This document shows, in pieces, positions 16,832 through 36,676 of a stretch of 64,000 nt of DNA; positions within the stretch are counted from its first letter, which is position 1, and the number at the start of each line of letters is the position of its first letter. The stretch is from Auricularia sp. M13 (lineage: Eukaryota > Basidiomycota > Agaricomycetes > Auriculariales > Auriculariaceae): positions 2,418,001 through 2,482,000 of the forward strand of contig CM073196.1 of assembly GCA_037042915.1 (NCBI GenBank), in the 5' to 3' direction. A program made the position numbers and the translations under genes. The notes under the pieces were generated by a model. The model was not told where the DNA came from and searched no databases. It was given only the letters and a program-made list of their open reading frames with translations.

Positions 16832-17789
16832 ATGCCAGACAATAATCCAGAGCTTGTGAGTTCATGGCACAGGATTTTTGCACGTCATTGACAGTGATAC
16901 AAGCCTACCATTGGGCCCGATGACGTCGTGTGTGATTGCTCACAGTGTCGGGGGCGCCGGTGTATCAACGAGTACGGCGAGGTGCAGCCTGGATGGCCTG
17001 TCAAGCCATCTACGCGAGCTCGACACAGATCCAACGACCAACAGCAGCTCGTATTGGACCAGGCGCGGGTTTCGGAAACCACACAAGCAAATCCGGAGCC
17101 CGAATCGCACAGACGCGCAAAGCTAACGCAGAAGCGTGCAGCATCGCACCGCGAAAAAATTCCACTGGATACACAACGGGGTACAGTATCTGATCCAAAT
17201 ATACTGCAGTTACTGAAGCTCTATTAGTGGTAGAAGACAAGATTCGGGACGTTGATCGCCTACTGCGCCTCCTCATGGTCTGGCTGTCTCTCTGTGGAGG
17301 TGCCAGTCGCTCTACAGTAAACAAGGCTTTGCGTGCTCTGAACTTTATACTGGCGATCCTTTTTCTGTGCTGAATCTTCTGCTACTTGCTGTCAATGTGG
17401 ACTGGACGCCATCGCCCATTGTCTTGCCTGCCGACATTCGCACTGTGACTCGATCTCTCGGCATGGAACCTTCCATTCAGCGCTCTATCTGTTGTCCGAA
17501 ATGCTTTACATCATATCCGTTGCCTCTGGATACAATTCCGAGGACTTGCACCTACCGCCAGGTCCGACGCGCAAAAGTCTGCGGGGAGCCACTCTGGCGT
17601 GAACGGCAGACCCGCAAGGGCCCCAAACGCGTTCCCCGCCGACTTTATAGTACTCAGTCCTTTGATGCCTGGCTCTTGGCATTTCTAGCTCGCCCAGGAA
17701 TCGAAGACGCGCTTGCCAAGTCCTGGTCTCATCAGCGAACACATAATCGCATGCGTAGCCTTTGGGACAGCCCTGCATGGCGCAGCCTC
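16832..17789 (+). pseudogene. Tnp2-type transposase, 5' part, interrupted by LTR element A
   Basis: N-terminal third of the CACTA transposase. A likely first exon of 8 codons (16832-16855, MPDNNPEL) and a 48-bp intron (16856-16903) lead to DDVVCDCSQCRG, a zinc-binding-like cluster typical of fungal Tnp2 proteins. Another intron probably follows KLTQK, with its acceptor at about 17210. Then come RDVDRLLRLLMVWLSLCGG, DIRTVTRSLGMEPS, the zinc-ribbon-like CCPKCF...CTYR...CGEPL, and KGPKRVPRRLYSTQSFDAW. A frame break at T5 17360-17364 is mended by one added T. The fragment ends in SPAWRSL, directly at the GCCTC target duplication. Confidence 0.8.
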
Positions 17790-18508
17790 TGTTGCGGTCA
17801 TCACGGCCGTCGCAAGCTCTGTCCGCTTGCCCGCGGATTTTACGCCGCTTCGCCGAGCGTTCGGACGCTGTTGCATACAGTCGGCGCACTGTTCACCCTC
17901 GAACGGAGACTCGGCCAGGGTTATACGCCTCGGGCTGCTCAACTCGGGATATGATCGATGCGCCGCTCTCTACCTGTCTAGGGGTGAGACGACCTCGGCG
18001 CATACCCCATTCGGCTCGGTGGAGGCTTCTTATCCTCGGACCAGGGTTCGGCAGCTCTCCCCTCGCTGTATGCGTCGGGTATGGGTGTTGTGGTGCTCGG
18101 GATGGACTCTAGGATCCCCTTCTGACCTCGGGCGAACTCGGTGAGCCACCCTGAACGACCTCGGAGGGTCTGGAACGCCTCTATTGGACTCCTCGTTGGT
18201 GCGATACCCCTCGGAGGGATAGTAGGCCGGTTGTCATCGCCTGGTACAAGCTCGGCTACATCCTCGGACCCTCGGCCCGTGGCCTCAGCAGCTCGGCGCT
18301 CTCCCCGTGCACTCGGGAGGTGCCCTCCTTCCCGGTTCGTGCCCTCGGTGGGTGTGTATGTGGATAGCACACCTCGGCACCTTTGTCCTGTCTCGGACCA
18401 GGTTCGATTGGAGGTGTGGTAGGGTGTTGGCACCATGGGAGATGATGGTGGATGGACCCTTTAGCTCCGGGATCACCCTGGACCGGATCATCGGACCTTG
18501 GAGAAGGG

Positions 18509-18514
18509 TATATA
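18509..18514 (+). promoter_or_regulatory. TATA box in the LTR of element A
   Basis: TATATA in AAGGGTATATAGG. The predicted RNA 5' end, which is also the self-primer, starts 34 bp downstream, a normal TATA-to-start distance. The same arrangement occurs in the 3' LTR and in element B. Confidence 0.6.
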
Positions 18515-18542
18515 GGTTGTAGGGTGTAGATGCGTGTACCCC

Positions 18543-18553
18543 AGGTTTGGTCT
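18543..18553 (+). promoter_or_regulatory. Predicted RNA 5' end / self-primer of element A
   Basis: AGGTTTGGTCT, the exact reverse complement of the primer-binding site at 18645-18655. In Tf1 of S. pombe the first 11 nt of the mRNA fold back onto the primer site and prime minus-strand synthesis, and length and geometry match here. Confidence 0.65.
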
Positions 18554-18644
18554 GGTCAATTGTACCGCTTGTCCGTTCTTCCTCGTCCCTCTCTCCTCTC
18601 TTGGCGTCGGTCTCGGCGAGTGACGAGCGCTCTGCCGTGACATA

Positions 18645-18655
18645 AGACCAAACCT
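18645..18655 (+). promoter_or_regulatory. Primer-binding site of element A
   Basis: AGACCAAACCT, two bases inside the 5' LTR. It is not a tRNA-type site (no TGG start) but complements the element's own predicted 5' RNA end over 11 nt. Confidence 0.65.
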
Positions 18656-19639
18656 TCACTCCCTTTCGACCGACGCTCATCCCTCTTCTTCTTCCCCACA
18701 CGGCCGCGACGTCCTCCCGACTACTATCGCCCGTGTGTCACGCCGGACGACCTCATCAGGCCGGCCTCGCCGTCAGCTAGCCGCTGTGCACCGGCCGAGG
18801 TCCATTGGCATCCGCATCCTTCTCCCTCGGAGTCGCCACCCACACCGAGAAGCGAGGCGTCCGCTGCCAAGGCCCTATCTCCACCCCATCGGCCGCAGCG
18901 CATGACCAAGCCCTTGGCACAGCCTCTCCACACGGTCGCGCGGGATACCCCGATCCCGCCCTCGGCGACCCCTGGTGCAGCACCTCCTTCGCACCCTCTA
19001 CCTCGGCGAGTAAACCGAGACACTCGCCCACGCCCAAAACCCCACCCCGGTTGTCTGGACTTGCGCGCTCAAGCCACAGCTGTTACACCTCCCCCTCTCG
19101 CACGCCATCGGCAGATGGGGCCTCGGCCGTGATCCGGATGGACTGGATGCACGCGCCGCAACGCCGAGATATGAACACCCTCGCCCCGAGGACGTCACGA
19201 ACCACCGGCCGCTGGCTGGACGACATGTACGACGTTTAACGATGCCCCGAGCTCTCGCCGAAGCTCCAGCAACCAGTAACTTCACTCGATGCGCGAACCC
19301 CAGCCGCCGACGGCGGATCCCACACGTTCCTTATTTCCCTTATCACTTACGGGTCGGTGCGCAGGCGTAGTCGGACCAACAGGACACAGCACAGGACTGG
19401 AATCCAACCTTTCCCGGACCTTGGAGTCGGCCGCAGGATGCCTAGGTCGGAAGGTGCCACACCAGGATGGATACGCCGACGACTGGAGCCAAAATCCCGG
19501 ACCCGCAGAAAGAAGTCCAATTGGTCTTTACGCTGGTTCGGACTCCCACTTCGGTCCCAGATTCAAGAAAGCTATTTATATTCTGTACATGCGCCCATTG
19601 CGACAAGAAAGACTAAGTACAGGATGCCGAACCGAATCC
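18656..19639. other. Sense half of element A, no credible gene
   Basis: About 1 kb between the primer site and the antisense gene. The region corresponds in position to the chromodomain gene of element B, but I find no chromodomain or other domain on either strand; open frames are Ser/Pro/Arg-rich. Probably the leader of a deleted or replaced gene. Confidence 0.5.
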
Positions 19640-20318
19640 TCAGTCCATGTCCATCGCTTCCTCCACCTCCTCTACCTCGTCCTCGTCCTCCTCCTCCTCC
19701 TCCGGACCCGACTCAGGTGGTGCCGACGCGCGCGAGGAGCTCGCCCCGGGTGTAACTGACGAGCGGGACGACCGCGTCGCCGTACCCGCCGCAAAACGAG
19801 TGCCGCGGCGCATGGCCGAGCGCAAAGGCACGGACACATGCGACGACGCGGGCGGAGCGGCTCCCCCGGCAACCAATGACCACGCCGCCGCGAACTGCGC
19901 CACGAAGTTGGGATGCAGCGGAGGCGCGGCCGCCGTGACGCCCGCACTCGGTGCCTCGATAGGCAGCGCAGGCAGACTCTCCTTCGCGGTCCGAGACCGC
20001 GAAGCACGAGACGAGACGACGACGACGCGGGCGCCTGGGGTACGACGGACGCGGCGCGGGAGCGAGATGGCGGCGCGCGTGTGCCCGACGACGGCGCCTT
20101 GGAACCCTTCCCTGTCTTGGTCCCGAACCCGAGCGGCGTGCGCACGTCCTTCCACGAGCACTTTACCTTCCGGCGCGAGCACTCGAGGCACGCTGCCAGC
20201 CCCTGCGCCGGAAGGCAGTCGTCGCCGCGGTCCACACATCGGCTACACGGCTGCCTGATGTCAGTGATCGCAGCCCAAGCCGGATGGTAATAGGTACTCA
20301 CCGAGGTTGGGACCCCAT
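19640..20318 (-). CDS. Antisense Zn2Cys6-like cluster protein of element A
   Basis: Runs opposite to its host element. A short first exon ATGGGGTCCCAACCTCG (20318-20302) and a 47-bp intron (20301-20255, GTGAGT donor, CACTGAC branch site, CATCAG acceptor) give MGSQPRQPCSRC. The cysteine cluster (20247-20158) is C-x2-C-x6-C-x8-C-x2-C-x6-C, the spacing of fungal Gal4-type binuclear zinc clusters, though the basic residues sit in the second half (SRRKVK). A Ser/Pro/Ala-rich region follows. The C-terminal tail is strongly acidic (EEEEEDEDEVEEVEEAMDMD) and stops at 19640. One frame break near 20020 (GTC/TCG repeat) must be crossed. DNA binding is inferred from spacing only. Confidence 0.5.
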
Positions 20319-21233
20319 GGCGATCTATCGCGCCGTCCGCAAAGCCCGATCCCACGCGTGCCGACGGTCGCGCAGCGGGGCGCTCCTCCACGCCAGGCGG
20401 GGCGTCCGTGGCCGACGCGGGTGGTGCAGCAGAGACCCGACGACGGCGGCGCAGAAACGGGCGGCACCCGCGCAGCAGATGACGAGCGCGGCGGACGAGC
20501 AGGTGGCGCCGAGCGAGCAGGCGGGGCAGGCGCCGACGACTGAGACGACGACGGAGGCGCAAGACGGCGCGGCAACGGAGCAACGACAGGCGGCGGCGCG
20601 GACTCCTCGCACTCGGCGTATAGCGGGTGCCCGGGCGGGACTCTCAACGTCGAGCAGCGGGTCCTGGATGCCGCATCGGACGGCAGAGGCGGCAGCGAGC
20701 GCCAGCGGACGGACGCAATCGGACGGCGCAGCGGGCACGGACAGAAACGGCGACAGAAGGGCGTCCGCGGGTGACGAGCAGGCAGCCAGACCGAGTTCAA
20801 GAGCACGGGCCGACGGCAGCAACGAGAAAAGCAAGCGGCGCTCGACGCCGAACTCCAACTGTCGGTTGCGGGCCAGGTCGCGGTGCGCAGCGGGGATGCC
20901 AGCGTCGCCGGCGCGGCGGCGATGCGGTCCATGGCGCCGGTCAGGACAACGATACGGGCCTCCATGCCCACGGCCCGAGCGCGCGAGCACAAAATCGGGC
21001 AGCACGGGCACCCAGGCGGGTGCTCCGCCACTGCGCTGGTCGTCGCGGACGTCGTCAACGCGGTCTGCAGCGGGCATGGTGGTGGTAAGAGGACAAGAAG
21101 CAAAATGACAGGCCGAAGCTTTATGTCAAACCGCGAACTGAATGGCCATTCAGTCCGCGGCGCCCTCGGCCCGTTGTTTCGCCCTCCCCGCTTTTCGCCT
21201 CCCTCCCTCGGACGCTCCCTCGGCTCGCGGCTT
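20319..21233. other. 3' interior of element A, coding unclear
   Basis: GC-rich, with long overlapping open frames on both strands (the longest + frame is 20284-21108) that are Ala/Arg/Ser-rich and lack recognisable domains. It may hold the promoter or 5' leader of the antisense gene. The last bases run into the polypurine tract. Confidence 0.35.
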
Positions 21234-21246
21234 GAAGGGGGGGTTA

Positions 21247-22100
21247 TGTTGCGGTCATCACGGCCGTCGCAAGCTCTGTCCGCTTGCCCGCGGATTTTAC
21301 GCCGCTTCGCCGAGCGTTCGGACGCTGTTGCATACAGTCGGCGCACTGTTCACCCTCGAACGGAGACTCGGCCAGGGTTATACGCCTCGGGCTGCTCAAC
21401 TCGGGATATGATCGATGCGCCGCTCTCTACCTGTCTAGGGGGTGAGACGACCTCGGCGCATACCCCATTCGGCTCGGTGGAGGCTTCTTATCCTCGGACC
21501 AGGGTTCGGCAGCTCTCCCCTCGCTGTATGCGTCGGGTATGGGTGTTGTGGTGCTCGGGATGGACTCTAGGATCCCCTTCTGACCTCGGGCGAACTCGGT
21601 GAGCCACCCTGAACGACCTCGGAGGGTCTGGAACGCCTCTATTGGACTCCTCGTTGGTGCGATACCCCTCGGAGGGATAGTAGGCCGGTTGTCATCGCCT
21701 GGTACAAGCTCGGCTACATCCTCGGACCTCGGCCCGTGGCCTCAGCAGCTCGGCGCTCTCCCCGTGCACTCGGGAGGTGCCCTCCTTCCCGGTTCGTGCC
21801 CTCGGTGGGTGTGTATGTGGATAGCACACCTCGGCACCTTTGTCCTGTCTCGGACCAGGTTCGATTGGAGGTGTGGTAGGGTGTTGGCACCATGGGAGAT
21901 GATGGTGGATGGACCCTTTAGCTCCGGGATCACCCTGGACCGGATCATCGGACCTTGGAGAAGGGTATATAGGTTGTAGGGTGTAGATGCGTGTACCCCA
22001 GGTTTGGTCTGGTCAATTGTACCGCTTGTCCGTTCTTCCTCGTCCCTCTCTCCTCTCTTGGGCGTCGGTCTCGGCGAGTGACGAGCGCTCTGCCGTGACA
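21247..22100 (+). repeat. 3' LTR of element A
   Basis: 854 bp, preceded by the polypurine tract and followed by the GCCTC duplication. No base substitution relative to the 5' copy was seen, only run-length differences. Confidence 0.93.
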
Positions 22101-24020
22101 GCCTCCCTGGAAACTTCGCCAGTATACCAGGGAATCTCATATTCAGCCTCTATATCGACTGGTTCAACCCATTTCGTAATACCATAGGCGGAAAGGTCGT
22201 CTCCTGCGGCGCCATTGTTCTTGTCTGCATGAGCCTGCCGTATGACATTCGTCACCTTCCGGAGAACATCTTCTTTGCTGGTCTCACCCCGCCACCAAAA
22301 GAGCCGACGGTCATTACCATCTCGCACGTCGTAAACCCCGTTATTGACCAGTTTCTCCCATACTGGCCGTTCGGGAAAGTCCTCCCCACTTTCAAGTTCC
22401 CGAATGGGCGACGAATCGGTGCTGCTATCATCCCAGTCATTGCTGACATCATTGCGATGCAAAAATTGACTGGGAAGGCGAGCCACAGTGCGACAGAATT
22501 TTGCTGGTTTTGCGATTGCACCGACGTCGAGAGTCTTGACACTGGGGCTTGGAACCTGAAGGACGCACGGACTATTCGGGCATACGCTGAATCTTGGCTC
22601 GCTGCCACTACCATAAAGGAACGCGAGCGCATCCGGAAGGAATCTGGCGTTCGCTGGACACCTCTCTATCGACTACCATACTGGGATCCCGTCAATCACT
22701 TTGTGCTCGGCTTTATGCACAACACACTTGAGGGTGTTTTGCAACACCACGCACGTGTGAAGTGGGGAATCGGTATTGCTAGCTCGACCAAGCGGCGTGT
22801 CAGGCAGAAAGATGAGGACACGGATGACGATATCACTGTCACAGGCGACACCAGCGGGTCGACTCGGAGCTTGAGGAACTTTCACTAGAAGCCGAAGGTC
22901 ATGCGGGACCAGCAAGTTCGACTCGCATTCGCTCGGCATCGCTTTCGAGTAGTGTGGAGCATGACATCGAGATGAGCGAGGTCGACGAGCCTCCGGCTTC
23001 TGGGACTGATTCCGATGACGACAACGAGTATGAGGAGCCTCCATCCAGGCGACAACCATGCGCGTTTTCAGATTCGCGGTTGGCAGACATCCGCAAATGC
23101 ATCGCCGAAGTCGTACTCCCGACCTGGGTCGAACGGCCACCCATTAACCTGGGCGAGAAGTCGCATGGAACGCTCAAGGCTGCTGTCTGGCTAACACTAT
23201 TTACAGTGATATTGCCACTGAAGCTTGCAGAGTTCTGGGCAGGTCCACGTGCAACGCAACGAGAACGGCAGCTCTTCAACAACTTTTATGATCTTGTCGC
23301 GTCCACCAACATTGTCGCATCCTTTACTACCTCTAATAGCGAGGCCGACGCCTACAAAGAACACTTCACCAAGTATCGGCGCAGTCTCCAAGCACTCTTC
23401 CCCGAGTCTCATTCGGTTCCCAATCATCACTACGCTATGCACAACCCGAATATGCTCAGATTCTGGGGTCCACTGCCTCCAGTGAGCGAGTTTACCTACG
23501 AGCGGTTCAATCATGTTCTACAATCTGTCAAGACTAATCGACGACTCGGTATGTCGCCTTTGTGCTAGTAGACCAGTGGCTAATGATAATCTAGCCGAGC
23601 TTGATCTCACAATGCTCAAGCACATTTGTGAGCGTGGTCAATTTGAGGCGAAGCTTCGAGACGCCTCGGCTGGCAGCTCAGTGCATTCGCTCGCGTCCCT
23701 ACTACTCCATGACGAGGAGAGCGTTGACTTTTCCGACCCGCCGCGTCTGACCGAGGACGAAGCACGCCATCTGCTTGCCAAGGGAAAACCGATGCCAGAG
23801 GACGATTATACTCTTGTGCTTCAGTTTCTTCAGTCCAGAGGCGAAGCGTGGCACCATCGCAACGTCTTGGATGCGCCTGCCAACTCAACTGCTCTCCCGC
23901 GTGCTGCCCTTCCTACCACCACAATTGTCTATCAAAGCCGCCACTACGCTCGCAAGGCGTCGCATCTGGGAAACAGCTCTATCAACTTCTATGCACCTGA
24001 CCGTCGTTCAAATGCCACGG
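22101..24020 (+). pseudogene. Tnp2-type transposase, central part, between the two LTR elements
   Basis: Continues in frame from SPAWRSL once element A and one GCCTC are removed, giving PGNFASIPGNLIFSLYIDW. It contains the most conserved Tnp2 blocks: SCGAIVLVCMSLPYDIRHLP, IFFAGLTPPPKEP, HSATEFCWFCDC (zinc-ligand-like), LPYWDPVNHFVLGFMHN, then LGEKSHGTLKAAVW and SEFTYERFNH. The usual Asp in the DxMHN block is Gly here (22709-22711). A frame break at G3 22856-22858 is mended by one G (SGVDSELEEL). An intron (donor GTATGT at about 23549, acceptor CTAG near 23594) joins NRRL to AELDLTML. It ends in RRSNAT at the CACGG duplication. Confidence 0.85.
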
Positions 24021-24501
24021 TGTCACGGTGACTGCTATATCACTCTCCGAGACGACGCCCGAGGAGAAGGGGTGAGTGGGGAGAGGGAGGCGCGGATAAG
24101 CGGTATGATAGACCAGACCAAACCTAAGGTACAAGAGGGGCGACGGCCCATATATATATATACTACGGAAGCAAGGCCGAGGGGCCCCGCGGACCAATTG
24201 CGCCACCGACCGGTTGTCACGCGGGCGCCACAGATCAGGCCGAAAGAGACCGCCGGGGCGTCGTCGGCGAGACAGAAAACCCGGGATAAATAGAGCCCAA
24301 CCAAACCAGAAACATCCCGTCATATCACCATTCTCCTGGGAAGAGACCGAGGTGCTCGCCGAGCGGAGAGACCGCTTGGACGCGCCGACGAAAGGGCCGC
24401 GGGGCCGGGCGCAAGGAGTTTGGGCGCCCGGCCGAGGTGCGAGGGCCACGGGACGGCGAAATGAAACAGCGGGGAGGAGGGACTCGACGAAGACCGCAAC
24501 A
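24021..24501 (-). repeat. 3' LTR of element B
   Basis: 481 bp. Identical to the other copy except for a G4/G5 run (24471-24474 versus 28173-28177). On the - strand it starts TGTTGCGG and ends CCGTGACA, the same termini as the element A LTR. Confidence 0.93.
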
Positions 24502-24724
24502 TAACCCCCTTCTAGCCGTCCAGTGGCCGAGGGGGAATGGCCAGGGAGGTGCGGGTTAGATCGGGCGTGGGGAGACGGACCATAGCGTGGCCGGGCCGAG
24601 CTCCATCCGTCGCGGGATCAAACTCTAAGCGTCAGATGCCGCGAAAGGCTCGGCTGCCGCCGTACACGAACCGCGGTACTTCTCGCTCTTCGCCTCCCCG
24701 CTTCCCGTCACCGTCCGATATCCT

Positions 24725-25972
24725 ATGACGCCCACCGCCGCCGACGGACTGACTGCGAAGCCTCTCGGCGAACTTCGGGACCTCAGGGAGCGGGTGTTCG
24801 CGCTGCATGCCTCCATCCAACGCCAACTGGACTTCGGGAACTACGCCGCGGACGCGGAGGAGGAGAAGGCGCGTACGGTGCTTGCGTCTGCGGGCCAGCG
24901 GTTGGAGGCCATTGACGCCGAGGTGCGCCGACGCAACGCCGCGACCCGCAATCTGGAGACGGCGGCGTCTCTCCTCGGCATGACAGCAGCCTCGCTCCCC
25001 GTAGTGCCGAAGGTAGAAGGGGTTCGCCGCACGGGAACGACCTCCTCGACCACGAAGGGCAAGGGCTCATCGGGAGTGGTCGCGTCTGGGTCGGCGGCCT
25101 TCGGACGTCGGCGCGCGAGGGACCGGCGACGAGGAGAAGGACGCGGTCGGGCCTCCTTTTAACACGGACGTCTTGGTCAAAGGTCCTCTTGCTCCGGGGT
25201 GTATCCTGCGCTGACATCTTTCGTCCGGGTCCAGCCTTGTGAGCAGTGCGAGCGCTCCGGCCGGCCGTGTTTTAGACAAGTGTCCGGGTCGGCGACTGCC
25301 TGTGCTCGGTGCCACCGGACCCGCGTGGGGTGTTCTCACAGCGTCGGCCGGTCGGGCACATCGCGCAAGAGGATGCGACAGGACGCTGACGTGGACGGCG
25401 ATGACGGGGACGATCCGGACCAGGACGACGTGGTGGACACCGTCGGCGCGTCCGTGGCGCGGTCGCGCACATCGGTCGCCGGGGACAGCCACCATGGCCG
25501 ACCTCGAGGTCCTGGGCGACCGCATCGTCCAGGGGTTCCAGCTGTCCGTCTCGGCGTTGAGGCGCGACCTTCGCAAGTGGACGCAGGAGCTCGTCGATGA
25601 CCGGCGTGCCCATAAGACGGTGCGCCTCGTGTCGCCGGGCGGGAGCGGCGCGATACCGACTCCAATGACGGCCGAGCGGTGGAGGACGAGGCGAGGAGGT
25701 CGCCCACCGACGCGCCGACTTCCCCTGGCGCCGCGGGCGTGGAGGCGGAGGCGCCGGCGGGTCCTGTCGGCGTGCTTGCTGACTTCGGCGCCGACCTGGC
25801 CCTTCTTGGCGTGGTAGTGCCGGGGGATGTGCGTCCGATACCCAGCTTTGCGTCGCTGGAGGCGTCTGGGTCCGGGTCCGGGTTCCTGCCACGCGTCCAA
25901 CGGTCCGAGGGTCGGGATGCGTCCGTGATAGGGGAGAAGTCGGTCGATGCGGGCCAACCCATGGAGGAGTAA
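24725..25972 (+). CDS. Antisense coiled-coil / Zn2Cys6-like protein of element B
   Basis: Opposite to its host element, equivalent to the antisense gene of A. The N-terminal part (24725-25162) is a likely coiled coil (LGELRDLRERVFALHASIQ, then EEEKARTVLASAGQRLEAID). An intron ends at 25234 (GCTGAC branch site, GTCCAG acceptor); its donor is unclear. The cysteine cluster at 25238-25333 is C-x2-C-x6-C-x10-C-x2-C-x6-C. Acidic DGDDGDDPDQDD and a second helical segment (MADLEVLGDRIVQG, ALRRDLRKWTQELVDD) follow, then an acidic/Pro-rich tail ending at 25972. Two frame breaks (near 25487 and 25680) must be crossed. Function unknown; nuclear DNA binding is only a guess from the cluster. Confidence 0.5.
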
Positions 25973-26149
25973 GACCGTGTCCGGGTATGATTCGGGTAGT
26001 GGTGTGGAGGCTCGTAAAATATGTAAATAGAGAGGCGGAAAGACGAGCATAAATACGGGGTATGAGAAACGACCGGGACCGTGACTGTGGAGAGCATCGA
26101 AGCGGCGTCCGACCGAGGTAGGGTCCGATTCTGGGCACGGTCGCCGAGG

Positions 26150-27052
26150 GGGAGGGAACGACGGGTGGCGTCCCTGTACGCCAGTAGATATCGACAAAGA
26201 AGGGCGGTTTTGGCTTCGCAAGGCGTGCTGCTGTACAAGGCAGGGGCAACCGTCCGGAGCGTTCAAAGACGGTGGGCCGGGCCGGGGACGCGATCCGCAG
26301 GACCAGGGCGTCGTCGGCGTACGTGGCACGATATTCGCGGACGTCCCAGACAAGGCACGCCGTAAGCCGAACGACCTGGAGGGCTCGTTCCGTCGAGGCG
26401 ACGTGATGAGATGAGGGCCGAGGCGAGGTGGGAACGAGAAGACCACTAGCTCGGTGCGAGCCCGTCGGCCTCGGTCATTGCGCACGACGGTCGGGAGTAC
26501 CCAGTAACGCGAGATATCGAGCGGGAGATGTCTCGGGGCAGTGAAGCGGCCGTAGTGAGTGAAGCGGTCTAGCATCCAGAAGAAAGGTCGGGGAGGGGCC
26601 ACGAGCATGGCGATGTCTAGCCGGGTGTCGTCCGGGTCCGGCGACCGGATACGAGCGCGAAGGGGGATGAGCCCCAGCGGAGGTGTGGCCGGGCGCGCGT
26701 CCTCAAGCTCGGACGACTCGTCGGCGGCGAGAGGTGACTCGCCGGTGCTGATGGGTGATTCGCCGAACAGCTCTTGGGATCCGTCGCCAAAGTCCTCGCC
26801 GAGGTCCATGTCCGCATCCTGGTCCAGGTCCTGTGCGGCGCCTTGGTCCTCATTTGGCTCCGGTGGTTCGGCGTGGTACTCCTCCACGAGTCCGGTTCCG
26901 TCCAGGTCGGCGGCCAGTTGCCAGCTAGCGTCCTCGGGGGGGAAGCCCATCCATTGGACGAGATACTGAGGAACTCCTCGGTGTACGCGGTGGTCCAGGA
27001 CTGCCGCCGGTATGTATTGAGGGTTAACTATGGTCTCGTCGTACTGGGACAT
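26150..27052 (-). CDS. Chromodomain protein encoded by element B
   Basis: The ATG at 27052 starts MSQYDETIVNPQYIPAAVLD. The chromodomain spans about residues 12-55. Residues matching the HP1 aromatic cage are all present: Tyr13, Trp34 and Phe37 (in QWMGF), plus Trp44. This predicts a methyl-lysine histone reader. An acidic linker (residues 60-115) leads to a region with RPFFWMLDRFTHYGRF and HLPLDISRYWVLP. Near 26435 the frame shifts by one base, after which TERALQVVRLTACLVWDV and ATYADDALVLRIASPARP continue the protein. The end near 26150 is approximate. In chromoviruses such a domain ends the integrase; here it opens a free-standing protein. The unshifted frame stays open to 25067, which I regard as chance in GC-rich DNA. 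Confidence 0.65.
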
Positions 27053-27709
27053 TTTGTGAGCGTTCGGTCCGAACAAAGGGGCGTGTCGGGGAAAAAGGGG
27101 GGAAAGAGGCGTCGGTCTGGCGGCCGATCCGGATTATATGGTGTATGTGTCGTAAGCGTTGATGCGTGGGGATGATGGGGGTCACGATCCGAGGAAGATG
27201 ATGTGAATGCGCCGCGCACCACGGGGGGAACTTGCTCTCGGGATGCGCGGAGGGTGAGGTTCTGGAGAGAGGGGTCGGCCGTGGGAGGTTTAGAGGTTGA
27301 CCGAGGGGGTGGGGACGCAGCGGGCGCGTTCGGCGAGTAGGGCTTGTGGGGGGGTGGTCTCGCCGCGGATGACCTGGCTCTGATGAAGAGGAGAGATCAA
27401 GAGCCGGTGATGGAATGAGCTTTCGGATTTGACGACCGTATGGGTCTGGAGGGGTCCTCGTTGGCTGAGTGCCTGACCCGAAGGCCAGTGGGCAAGGCTC
27501 GGCGTCCGGAGGGTGGGTCCTGCAGGGTCCTGGTGGGCCGATGAGTGGGCGCGGCGGTCGCGACGGGTCCTCGTCGACGCGAGGGGTCTCCTAGCCGGTC
27601 CGAGGGTCGGATTCCTTCCTGGACCGAGCAACGCCGACCGAACGGTTCGCCCGGATTGGAAGGGTGGTGAGTAAGGGGTATGGGGATCTCGAGCGTCGGG
27701 AGGGAGGGT
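27053..27709. other. 5' leader of element B
   Basis: About 650 bp between the primer site and the chromodomain ATG. No coding signal on either strand; purine-rich on the + strand. Likely an untranslated leader, possibly with packaging signals. Confidence 0.45.
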
Positions 27710-27720
27710 AGGTTTGGTCT
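27710..27720 (-). promoter_or_regulatory. Primer-binding site of element B
   Basis: On the - strand AGACCAAACCT, two bases inside the 5' LTR and identical to the site in element A. Complementary to the predicted RNA 5' end at 27827-27817 (12 nt if the next base is counted). Confidence 0.65.
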
Positions 27721-27722
27721 TA

Positions 27723-28204
27723 TGTCACGGTGACTGCTATATCACTCTCCGAGACGACGCCCGAGGAGAAGGGGTGAGTGGGGAGAGGGAGGCGCGGATA
27801 AGCGGTATGATAGACCAGACCAAACCTAAGGTACAAGAGGGGCGACGGCCCATATATATATATACTACGGAAGCAAGGCCGAGGGGCCCCGCGGACCAAT
27901 TGCGCCACCGACCGGTTGTCACGCGGGCGCCACAGATCAGGCCGAAAGAGACCGCCGGGGCGTCGTCGGCGAGACAGAAAACCCGGGATAAATAGAGCCC
28001 AACCAAACCAGAAACATCCCGTCATATCACCATTCTCCTGGGAAGAGACCGAGGTGCTCGCCGAGCGGAGAGACCGCTTGGACGCGCCGACGAAAGGGCC
28101 GCGGGGCCGGGCGCAAGGAGTTTGGGCGCCCGGCCGAGGTGCGAGGGCCACGGGACGGCGAAATGAAACAGCGGGGGAGGAGGGACTCGACGAAGACCGC
28201 AACA
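27723..28204 (-). repeat. 5' LTR of element B
   Basis: 482 bp. The - strand has a long TATATATATATA box (27864-27853) and the self-primer AGGTTTGGTCT at 27827-27817. Only these core parts and the termini are shared with the 853-bp LTR of element A; the U3 regions differ greatly. Confidence 0.93.
27817..27827 (-). promoter_or_regulatory. Predicted RNA 5' end / self-primer of element B
   Basis: AGGTTTGGTCT on the - strand, about 26-37 bp past the TATA run. Pairs with the primer-binding site at 27720-27710. Confidence 0.6.
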
Positions 28205-28511
28205 CACGGGCTTCATCGAAACCATCTGGAGAATGCCGCTCAACGGACAGCTTCGCGCGTTCCTCCTGGTCAGACTCCAGGAGAGTTTGCCTGATCAGGA
28301 CGCAGACAAAAGCCCATTCAAGTCGCACCCTCGAATGCTGGTCCAAGTTGTCAGCGGACGTCCCGCTGACGGTGCCGACCACGTTGGGGTAATCGAGCCT
28401 TCTGGCATCATTGCCCATGTTCCATTCATCAGGTATCCAGGCAGTGTCTATGGGATGGAGACGGAGGAAATTCTCGTGCTTAGTGGTGCGCTCAATCGCG
28501 GAAGAAACTAA
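28205..28511 (+). pseudogene. Tnp2-type transposase, 3' end
   Basis: Last piece of the transposase. With element B and one CACGG removed, RRSNATG continues into FIETIWRMPLNGQLRAFLL. The C-terminal domain ends VLSGALNRGRN with a stop at 28509-28511, matching the position where fungal Tnp2 proteins end. No frame break in this part. The right end of the CACTA element follows 310 bp later. Confidence 0.8.
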
Positions 28512-36594: not shown

Positions 36595-36676
36595 TGCCGG
36601 GACTGGGGTTCGAACCCAGGCGTGTCGCCACATCGGATCTTAAGACCGACGCCATAAACCACTCGGCCACCCCGGC
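36595..36676 (-). tRNA. tRNA-Leu, anticodon UAA
   Basis: 82 nt on the - strand. Acceptor stem GCCGGGG with UCCCGGC, discriminator A, D-arm GGCCGAGUGG, anticodon loop CUUAAGA (anticodon UAA), long class II variable arm as expected for Leu, and T-arm with GGTTCGAACCC, which doubles as the B box. No intron. The last pair of the anticodon stem is a U-U mismatch. Confidence 0.92.

Follow-up and report, generated by a model that had tools for sequence, protein, structure and literature searches.

The question raised by this locus is how a long terminal repeat (LTR) retrotransposon which has no polymerase of its own comes to carry two protein genes, one on each strand, and whether these genes are kept for a purpose. 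The window, that is the whole stretch of DNA analysed, comprises 64,000 nt of Auricularia sp. M13 (GCA_037042915.1, contig CM073196.1, 2,418,001–2,482,000 of the forward strand), and the element in question, called element B here, lies at positions 24021–28204 with its sense direction on the minus strand. Apart from the known case of Gag, one does not expect a non-autonomous element to retain genes whose products act in trans. The reading favoured here, to which we assign a probability of roughly 0.6, is that B belongs to a helper-dependent gypsy-type family without gag and pol which selection maintains as the vehicle of two accessory genes. Together with a sister element A in the same window it makes two polymerase-less families which, as judged from substitution patterns, keep non-Gag genes under purifying selection, with a gene on the antisense strand among them.

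Element B is a non-autonomous LTR retrotransposon, with an LTR pair, a target-site duplication (TSD), a primer-binding site (PBS) and a polypurine tract (PPT), and without reverse transcriptase or integrase. The first-pass annotation of the locus had named these four signals, and all were recovered: the two LTRs differ by one indel and no substitution, CACGG stands on both sides, the PPT reads AGAAGGGGGTTA, and the PBS TAAGACCAAACCTA starts right after the LTR. Between them lie a sense gene for a chromodomain protein and an antisense gene for a six-cysteine protein, arranged tail to tail. That this pair comes without a polymerase, as had been claimed, is borne out by the lack of Pfam matches to gag, reverse transcriptase or integrase in either protein, where a diverged gag could escape Pfam; the sense protein matches PF00385. 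Furthermore, none of the 150 places of the genome-wide integrase list (the best 150 of 222 candidates scored) falls in the window element. A leader open reading frame (ORF) of about 180 amino acids is open only in some copies (L020, L048) and gave no Pfam match for the one copy scanned, and an Rfam scan of 17700–28300 yielded no match. In the window copy the chromodomain gene has two deletions of 1 nt, and the antisense gene lacks 15 nt, among them the T of the intron donor; because both frames are broken in this copy, protein lengths were taken from relatives.

The sense protein has 263 amino acids in unbroken relatives and matches the Pfam chromodomain above the cut-off (E 9.1e-10 to 1.4e-9), its best solved relatives being CBX1 (E 9.4e-7) and HP1 (E 3.7e-6). 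Residues Y13, W34 and F37, invariant in five B proteins, occupy what we take to be the positions of the methyl-lysine cage. With the Pfam match and these three aromatic residues the domain classifies as an HP1-like chromodomain, and the protein probably reads histone marks. The chromodomain of Tf1/sushi chromoviruses is fused to integrase. That of B is free-standing and does not show the integrase fusion which defines the chromoviruses of the Ty3/gypsy group. The protein extends about 200 residues past the chromodomain into a region without Pfam match, and four relatives are 86–96% identical along its length. Since the nearest other chromodomains of the genome are 29–42% identical, with E values of 0.005 or worse, no close donor of the domain was seen.

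The antisense protein has 420 amino acids in unbroken relatives and bears the cluster CX2CX6CX10CX2CX6C in its middle. The spacing of Zn2Cys6 clusters is CX2CX6CX5-12CX2CX6-8C, a pattern into which the cysteines of B and of A (CX2CX6CX8CX2CX6C) both fit. The label of a Zn2Cys6-like protein given in the first-pass annotation thus stands as far as spacing is concerned and falls short in the Pfam comparison, where Zn_clus (PF00172, cut-off 21) reached 8–11 bits for B and 17–18 bits for A (P0005, P0006). The basic stretch lies in the second half here, unlike in Gal4. The antisense protein is a probable DNA-binding protein. Its gene contains a probable intron of 69 nt. Of 25 copies, all have the acceptor AG and 21 have the donor GT[AG]NGT; L014, L016 and the window copy have lost the donor, and L054 retains GT.

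In the LTR search of the genome 41 matches were obtained with 40 of the 195 candidates scored, so that all copy numbers of B are lower bounds. The sense gene was found at 25 loci. For closer comparison the window copy and 30 fetched loci, picked for a match to an LTR pair or to the sense gene, were collected, three of which duplicate parts of others, and 25 copies with an interior were obtained. L022 and L027 consist of an LTR without interior, and L021 (C3:3669910–3675160), considered as a B element with another interior, was rejected as it represents two B LTRs in a tandem repeat of about 1.19 kb without any match to the B interior. Both genes are present in 25 of the 25 interior-bearing copies thus selected, and the co-occurrence between the same LTRs which had been proposed as a check is therefore a property of many copies. 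Perfect TSDs of 5 bp were found in 20 of the 22 copies with both flanks. Five of 22 LTR pairs are free of substitutions and the remainder have 1 to 10, from which a recent movement of the family is deduced. In the genome the sense protein matches nothing but B copies at E<=0.001. The search outside the genome, also suggested at first, gave one relative of each gene, each on a 3731-nt contig from the same source; these are presumably one contig, with a length of roughly one B LTR plus one interior.

Selection on the two genes was assessed from synonymous (dS) and nonsynonymous (dN) divergence. Comparison of L054 with the unbroken copy L046 gave dS 0.329, dN 0.071 and dN/dS 0.22 for the sense gene and dS 0.334, dN 0.080 and dN/dS 0.24 for the antisense gene; for L053 against L046 the ratios were 0.27 and 0.20, respectively. 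The changes between L054 and L046 are distributed over the three codon positions as 20/15/58 in the sense gene and 38/32/90 in the antisense gene, which is a third-position excess in both frames, each on the strand of its own gene. By these codon patterns both genes are shown to be under purifying selection, as should be seen if the frames are not spurious. The gene pair first noticed in the window is thus real, in view of the 25 copies and the third-position excess, with the reservation that the copy in which it was noticed has lost both frames. Few copies have in-frame stops (2 of 25 for the sense gene, 4 of 24 for the antisense gene); small indels are common and several of them are shared, amounting to 11 distinct events in the sense gene and 32 in the antisense gene. 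Deletions of 2 nt recur at ACTTCG/CGAAGC motifs in the B antisense gene (nt 50, 109, 370, and 1075), and since these may be assembly errors the number of broken B copies is unsafe.

Relatives of the antisense gene occur in a third family, which bears pol. Of 55 rows for its antisense gene 47 were used, leaving out three second pieces and five rows with E >0.02. At 29 of these 47 loci a listed integrase is found on the other strand, with the antisense gene 986–1302 bp to its 3' side, at 18 no listed integrase is within 6 kb, and no locus has another arrangement; an antisense ORF 3' of pol, the trait of the plant Retand elements, is thus found in pol-bearing relatives at 29 of 47 loci, with A and B having no pol. 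Once A-like pieces, among which are C12:482564 and presumably C7:2809842, are set aside, the weak matches of the A protein within the genome (E 2.7e-4 to 0.13) come down to six places, each of them a third-family antisense gene, and the single weak match of the B antisense protein (E 0.002, C3:2394842) is a third-family antisense gene as well. In L061 (C5:570900–573400) a gypsy pol end with a Tf2-1-like SH3 domain (E 6e-15) and no chromodomain by Pfam is followed by an opposite-strand gene whose product has a six-cysteine cluster and also an acidic tail, and then by a PPT and an LTR-like start. HHalign aligned the cluster of B to that of the pol-bearing family with 41% identity over 37 amino acids (P 2.4e-6, probability 89%). 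Another finding was that in A, B, and a pol-bearing copy a probable intron, of phase 0 by eye, ends no more than one codon away from the first cysteine. The homology of the three antisense genes is argued from the similarity of the clusters, from orientation and place, and from this probable intron position, and these comparisons support a shared ancestry of the B antisense gene with the antisense gene between pol and 3' LTR of gypsy elements. A Pfam chromodomain occurs within 2 kb of one of the 29 integrases paired with an antisense gene (80 of 106 chromodomain rows were counted, the rest being B copies and one second piece), and as L061 has none either, the pol-bearing relatives seem to be without the separate chromodomain module of B.

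That the antisense position is common to A, B, and the pol-bearing elements could also mean that the convergent antisense unit acts mainly as RNA, limiting copy number by double-stranded RNA or transcriptional interference, with the protein being secondary. The dN/dS values of 0.12–0.24 in the deeper pairs, the lowest of which comes from one partial pair of the third family (dS 0.21, dN 0.024, dN/dS 0.12; 15 synonymous and 7 other changes), and the excess of third-position changes speak for selection on the proteins instead, and make such a decoy or silencing role quite improbable.

The sister element A supports the same picture for the antisense gene. In its unbroken relatives L055 and L057 the longest ORF is the antisense one with 476–480 amino acids; the sense ORFs are shorter (up to 222 amino acids), and the codon pattern follows the antisense frame. 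Five comparisons with L057 gave dS 0.37–0.59, dN 0.06–0.12, and dN/dS 0.15–0.21, values by which the A antisense gene is under purifying selection. Its intron of 51 nt has kept GTGAG and CAG in six of six copies, with 8 to 24 of the 48 scored positions being different. No relative of the A protein was found beyond the genome among the 7994 candidates scored, which were those sharing most words with it. A and B have the PBS core, the PPT, and the LTR ends in common. A 16-base pattern of the LTR–PBS junction has 59 exact sites in the genome and none for the reversed control, and the junction is followed by an A-type antisense gene at 32 sites, a B-type one at 24, and neither at three, namely a truncated B (C8:3397573), an apparent B split by a long insertion (C12:1012547), and C4:1490378. 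L060 (C12:475500–485400), which has an A-type antisense match 3' of its integrase, was considered as a helper; it proved to be a lone ORF of 1672 amino acids for protease, reverse transcriptase, RNase H and integrase (Pfam RT, RNase H, rve), with no direct repeat of >=30 nt and a rearranged A fragment beside it, and was rejected. A elements are apparently also found in head-to-tail arrays sharing LTRs with about 3460 bp per unit, at C3:2499742–2514453 and C11:2666943–2676990.

The ends of B suggest a mode of priming. In the Tf1-type self-priming layout the PBS is complementary to the 5' end of the mRNA of the element itself. In B, 12 nt of the PBS are complementary to LTR positions 377–388, the TATA box lies at LTR position 341, and the complement of the PBS, TAGGTTTGGTCT, follows about 34 nt further on. 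The complementarity is 12 nt long in 22 of 23 scored B copies, 10 nt in L050, and 11 nt in A, and a shuffled PBS 20-mer reached 12 nt in 3 of 5000 cases; the spacing from TATA box to PBS complement is 32–36 nt in B (34 in most) and 34 in A. With a PBS that may be complementary to the start of its own mRNA and with its use of a chromodomain B resembles the Tf1/sushi chromoviruses. Conservation is higher in the leader behind the PBS than in the genes: L054 and L046 are 94–98% identical in the first 300 nt of the B interior, as compared to 79–91% over most of the coding part, and the first 600 nt of A reach 94–100% versus 73–93% between 601 and 2400. No clear codon pattern was seen in the B leader (changes by codon position 12/10/18 for L054, 11/8/11 for L053), and a short conserved peptide may still be present in the stretch before the sense gene. 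Possible reasons for the conservation are packaging or dimerisation signals for a helper Gag, or an exchange between copies by template switching.

Insertion sites were compared with 150 integrase and 46 of the 47 third-family antisense rows, using one position per copy or tandem array, a uniform null, and assumed lengths for contigs C4 and C13. Within 10 kb of such loci 6 of 25 B copies were found versus 1.54 expected, and 7 of 27 A copies versus 1.66. At a distance of up to 5 kb the counts were 3 of 25 for B (p 0.04) and 3 of 27 for A (p 0.05), and up to 20 kb they were 8 of 25 for B and 12 of 27 for A. The B copy L011 lies directly behind the antisense gene of the pol-bearing family. This bias fits targeting by the chromodomain as well as survival of insertions in regions rich in transposable elements.

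From this anatomy a cycle can be proposed in which the sense RNA of B would start after the TATA box of the LTR, fold with its 5' end onto the adjacent PBS and prime its own reverse transcription in the manner of Tf1. It would be packaged and copied by the Gag-Pol of a helper and inserted with duplications of 5 bp. The antisense gene would have a promoter of its own near the 3' end and travel as cargo together with its intron, which lies in reverse orientation in the sense RNA, is not spliceable there and so should survive reverse transcription. Judged by domain identity and selection, the six-cysteine protein may be nuclear, bind element DNA, and tune sense transcription, and the chromodomain protein might tie the complex of complementary DNA and integrase, or the chromatin of the element, to H3K9-methylated regions in trans. 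The sister family A would have kept the antisense gene, with B having the HP1-like sense gene in addition. It is a tentative extension of this scheme, and one for which we see less than even odds, that A and B stand for a class of elements surviving by selection on accessory regulators alone. In this view the antisense zinc-cluster gene, common to the lineage and placed behind pol in one family, would be the main gene of A, and in B it would be joined by a trans-acting chromodomain protein supplying a heterochromatin reader undetected in the pol-bearing relatives. If so, labour would be divided, one element providing targeting and regulation and another the enzymes, and if the chromodomain protein acts in trans, targeting would be separable from integrase.

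Several observations weigh against a gene pair maintained for its function. Many B copies, including that of the window, carry frameshifts although some LTR pairs are identical, and the shallow pairs (L047, L048, L049, and L052 against L046) show dN/dS of 0.31–0.54 in the sense and 0.23–0.40 in the antisense gene, based on few changes. The frameshifts would mean either that the proteins act in trans, or that they are dispensable, or that some of the indels are assembly errors. Together with the youth of the window copy, both genes of which are broken between substitution-free LTRs, and with the relatives of the antisense gene behind pol, they would suit a B that is a deletion derivative of a pol-bearing element, in which the chromodomain gene is what remains of the end of a chromo-integrase, and both genes, selected only in autonomous ancestors, are passengers today. 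We consider this unlikely, as selection is visible between subfamilies which already have the B layout (L053 and L054 versus L046), as the sense protein is well conserved for some 200 residues beyond the chromodomain, as the other chromodomains of the genome are distant in sequence, and as a Pfam chromodomain is near 1 of the 29 antisense-linked integrases.

A further such point concerns the gene pair genome-wide. For placement counts antisense rows were hand-picked with one row per copy (28 B-type, 33 A-type), and the first-pass annotation's co-occurrence held at 25 of the 28 B-type loci, where the chromodomain gene lies across from the antisense gene on the other strand, and failed at three (C3:2489073, C12:168942, C4:3924002); these three, which were not fetched, are 82–90% identical and are perhaps a further family. 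The missing sense gene, the HP1-like nature of the chromodomain, and the probable intron of the antisense gene are what one would see if both genes had been captured by chance from the host and spread as cargo. We give this hardly any credit, in view of the two-gene layout at the other 25 loci, of sense-protein matches confined to B copies, and of the related antisense gene behind pol in other elements; moreover, co-occurrence, purifying selection, and an outside relative of each gene all make chance capture unlikely. Also on the negative side, no gag-pol element with exactly the PBS of A and B was recognised among the 59 junctions (C4:1490378 was left unexamined), the predicted fold of the sense protein, made from five sequences, was useless with a mean predicted local distance difference test score of 36, and the insertion bias may reflect regions rich in transposable elements generally rather than targeting. 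The homology of the A cluster rests on 33–37 amino acids and the intron position, with low HHalign probabilities (A versus B, P 0.001 and 22%; A versus the pol-bearing family, P 0.0014 and 17%).

A carrier of two accessory genes, as we favour for B, has partial counterparts among known elements. TRIM and LARD elements code for nothing, and TR-GAG elements code for gag. B differs from the former two by its two selected ORFs and from the latter by the lack of a Pfam gag match in its proteins and in the leader ORF of one copy. With all three it shares LTRs, PBS, PPT, and TSD without pol (for TRIM see also PMC10886601). In wheat RLG_Quinta and RLG_Cereba, according to PMC11302176, a non-autonomous element has an ORF of its own and PBS and LTR termini in common with a partner, as does B; a helper has been proposed for Quinta, which encodes GAG (PMC11302176), whereas no gag was found in B. 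The plant Retand gypsy elements, as described in PMC11963269, carry antisense genes which lie between pol and the 3' LTR and often encode TRP28, a probable DNA-binding protein, and some members are non-autonomous. The antisense gene for a probable DNA-binding protein and its place between pol and 3' LTR are the traits in common with the fungal elements. The fungal ones differ in that the protein is a six-cysteine protein, that A and B have no gag-pol, and that B adds a free-standing chromodomain gene; TRP28 (PF04195) was not among the Pfam matches of P0002, P0005, P0006, P0007, P0011, and P0012. By analogy B would work like Retand and Quinta combined, being a member of neither. A parallel to its antisense gene is HBZ of HTLV-1, named in PMC11963269, an antisense nuclear protein inside an LTR element; HBZ sits in a complete retrovirus and no sequence relation to B is claimed.

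The distinct architecture proposed in the first-pass annotation is supported, as most of the tests named there had a favourable outcome. It stands for the free-standing chromodomain gene and needs refinement for the antisense gene, which has relatives in A and in pol-bearing elements and a precedent in the plant antisense ORFs. Already known, from PMC11963269, are antisense ORFs with probable DNA-binding domains in plant gypsy elements. New are the antisense six-cysteine gene in a fungus, elements which keep only accessory genes, and the free-standing chromodomain gene. Neither a fungal antisense zinc-cluster gene in LTR elements nor a free-standing chromodomain gene in one was seen among the open PubMed Central papers listed for the words searched, as judged by titles and the starts of abstracts, and the word antisense is absent from the accessible part of a paper on LTR retrotransposons in fungi (PMC3248453). 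Given the parallel to plant Retand and to HBZ, fungi now offer a place to test why genes for DNA-binding proteins arise repeatedly on the antisense strand of LTR elements.

Features of elements B and A in the window (positions count from the first nucleotide of the window)
Feature	Positions	Strand	Remark
TSD CACGG, left	24016..24020	.	TSD comparison
LTR of B, 3' copy in element sense	24021..24501	-	LTR pair, 481 nt
PPT AGAAGGGGGTTA (minus reading)	24502..24513	-	adjoins 3' LTR
Antisense six-cysteine (Zn2Cys6-like) gene	24725..25972	+	frame-broken in window copy
Probable intron of antisense gene	25167..25235	+	GTACGT...CTGAC...CAG in relatives; donor lost in window copy
Six-cysteine cluster CX2CX6CX10CX2CX6C	25236..25343	+
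Sense gene, free-standing chromodomain protein	26263..27052	-	two 1-nt deletions in window copy
HP1-like chromodomain	26873..27016	-	aromatic residues kept at three presumed cage positions
5' leader	27120..27702	-	first ~300 nt more conserved than genes
PBS TAAGACCAAACCTACCCTCC	27703..27722	-	partly complementary to LTR
LTR of B, 5' copy in element sense	27723..28204	-	482 nt
TAGGTTTGGTCT, likely start of R	27817..27828	-	complementary to PBS
TATA box TATATATATATAT of sense promoter	27852..27864	-
TSD CACGG, right	28205..28209	.
Sister element A	17790..22100	+	TSD GCCTC; LTRs 17790-18642, 21247-22100
Antisense six-cysteine gene of A	19640..21077	-	broken in window copy

The pol-bearing gypsy family, in which the antisense six-cysteine gene lies 3' of pol and which comprises L061 and 46 further loci, is worth a study of its own. 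Elsewhere in the window a tRNA-Leu (TAA) gene is located at 36595–36676 on the minus strand.

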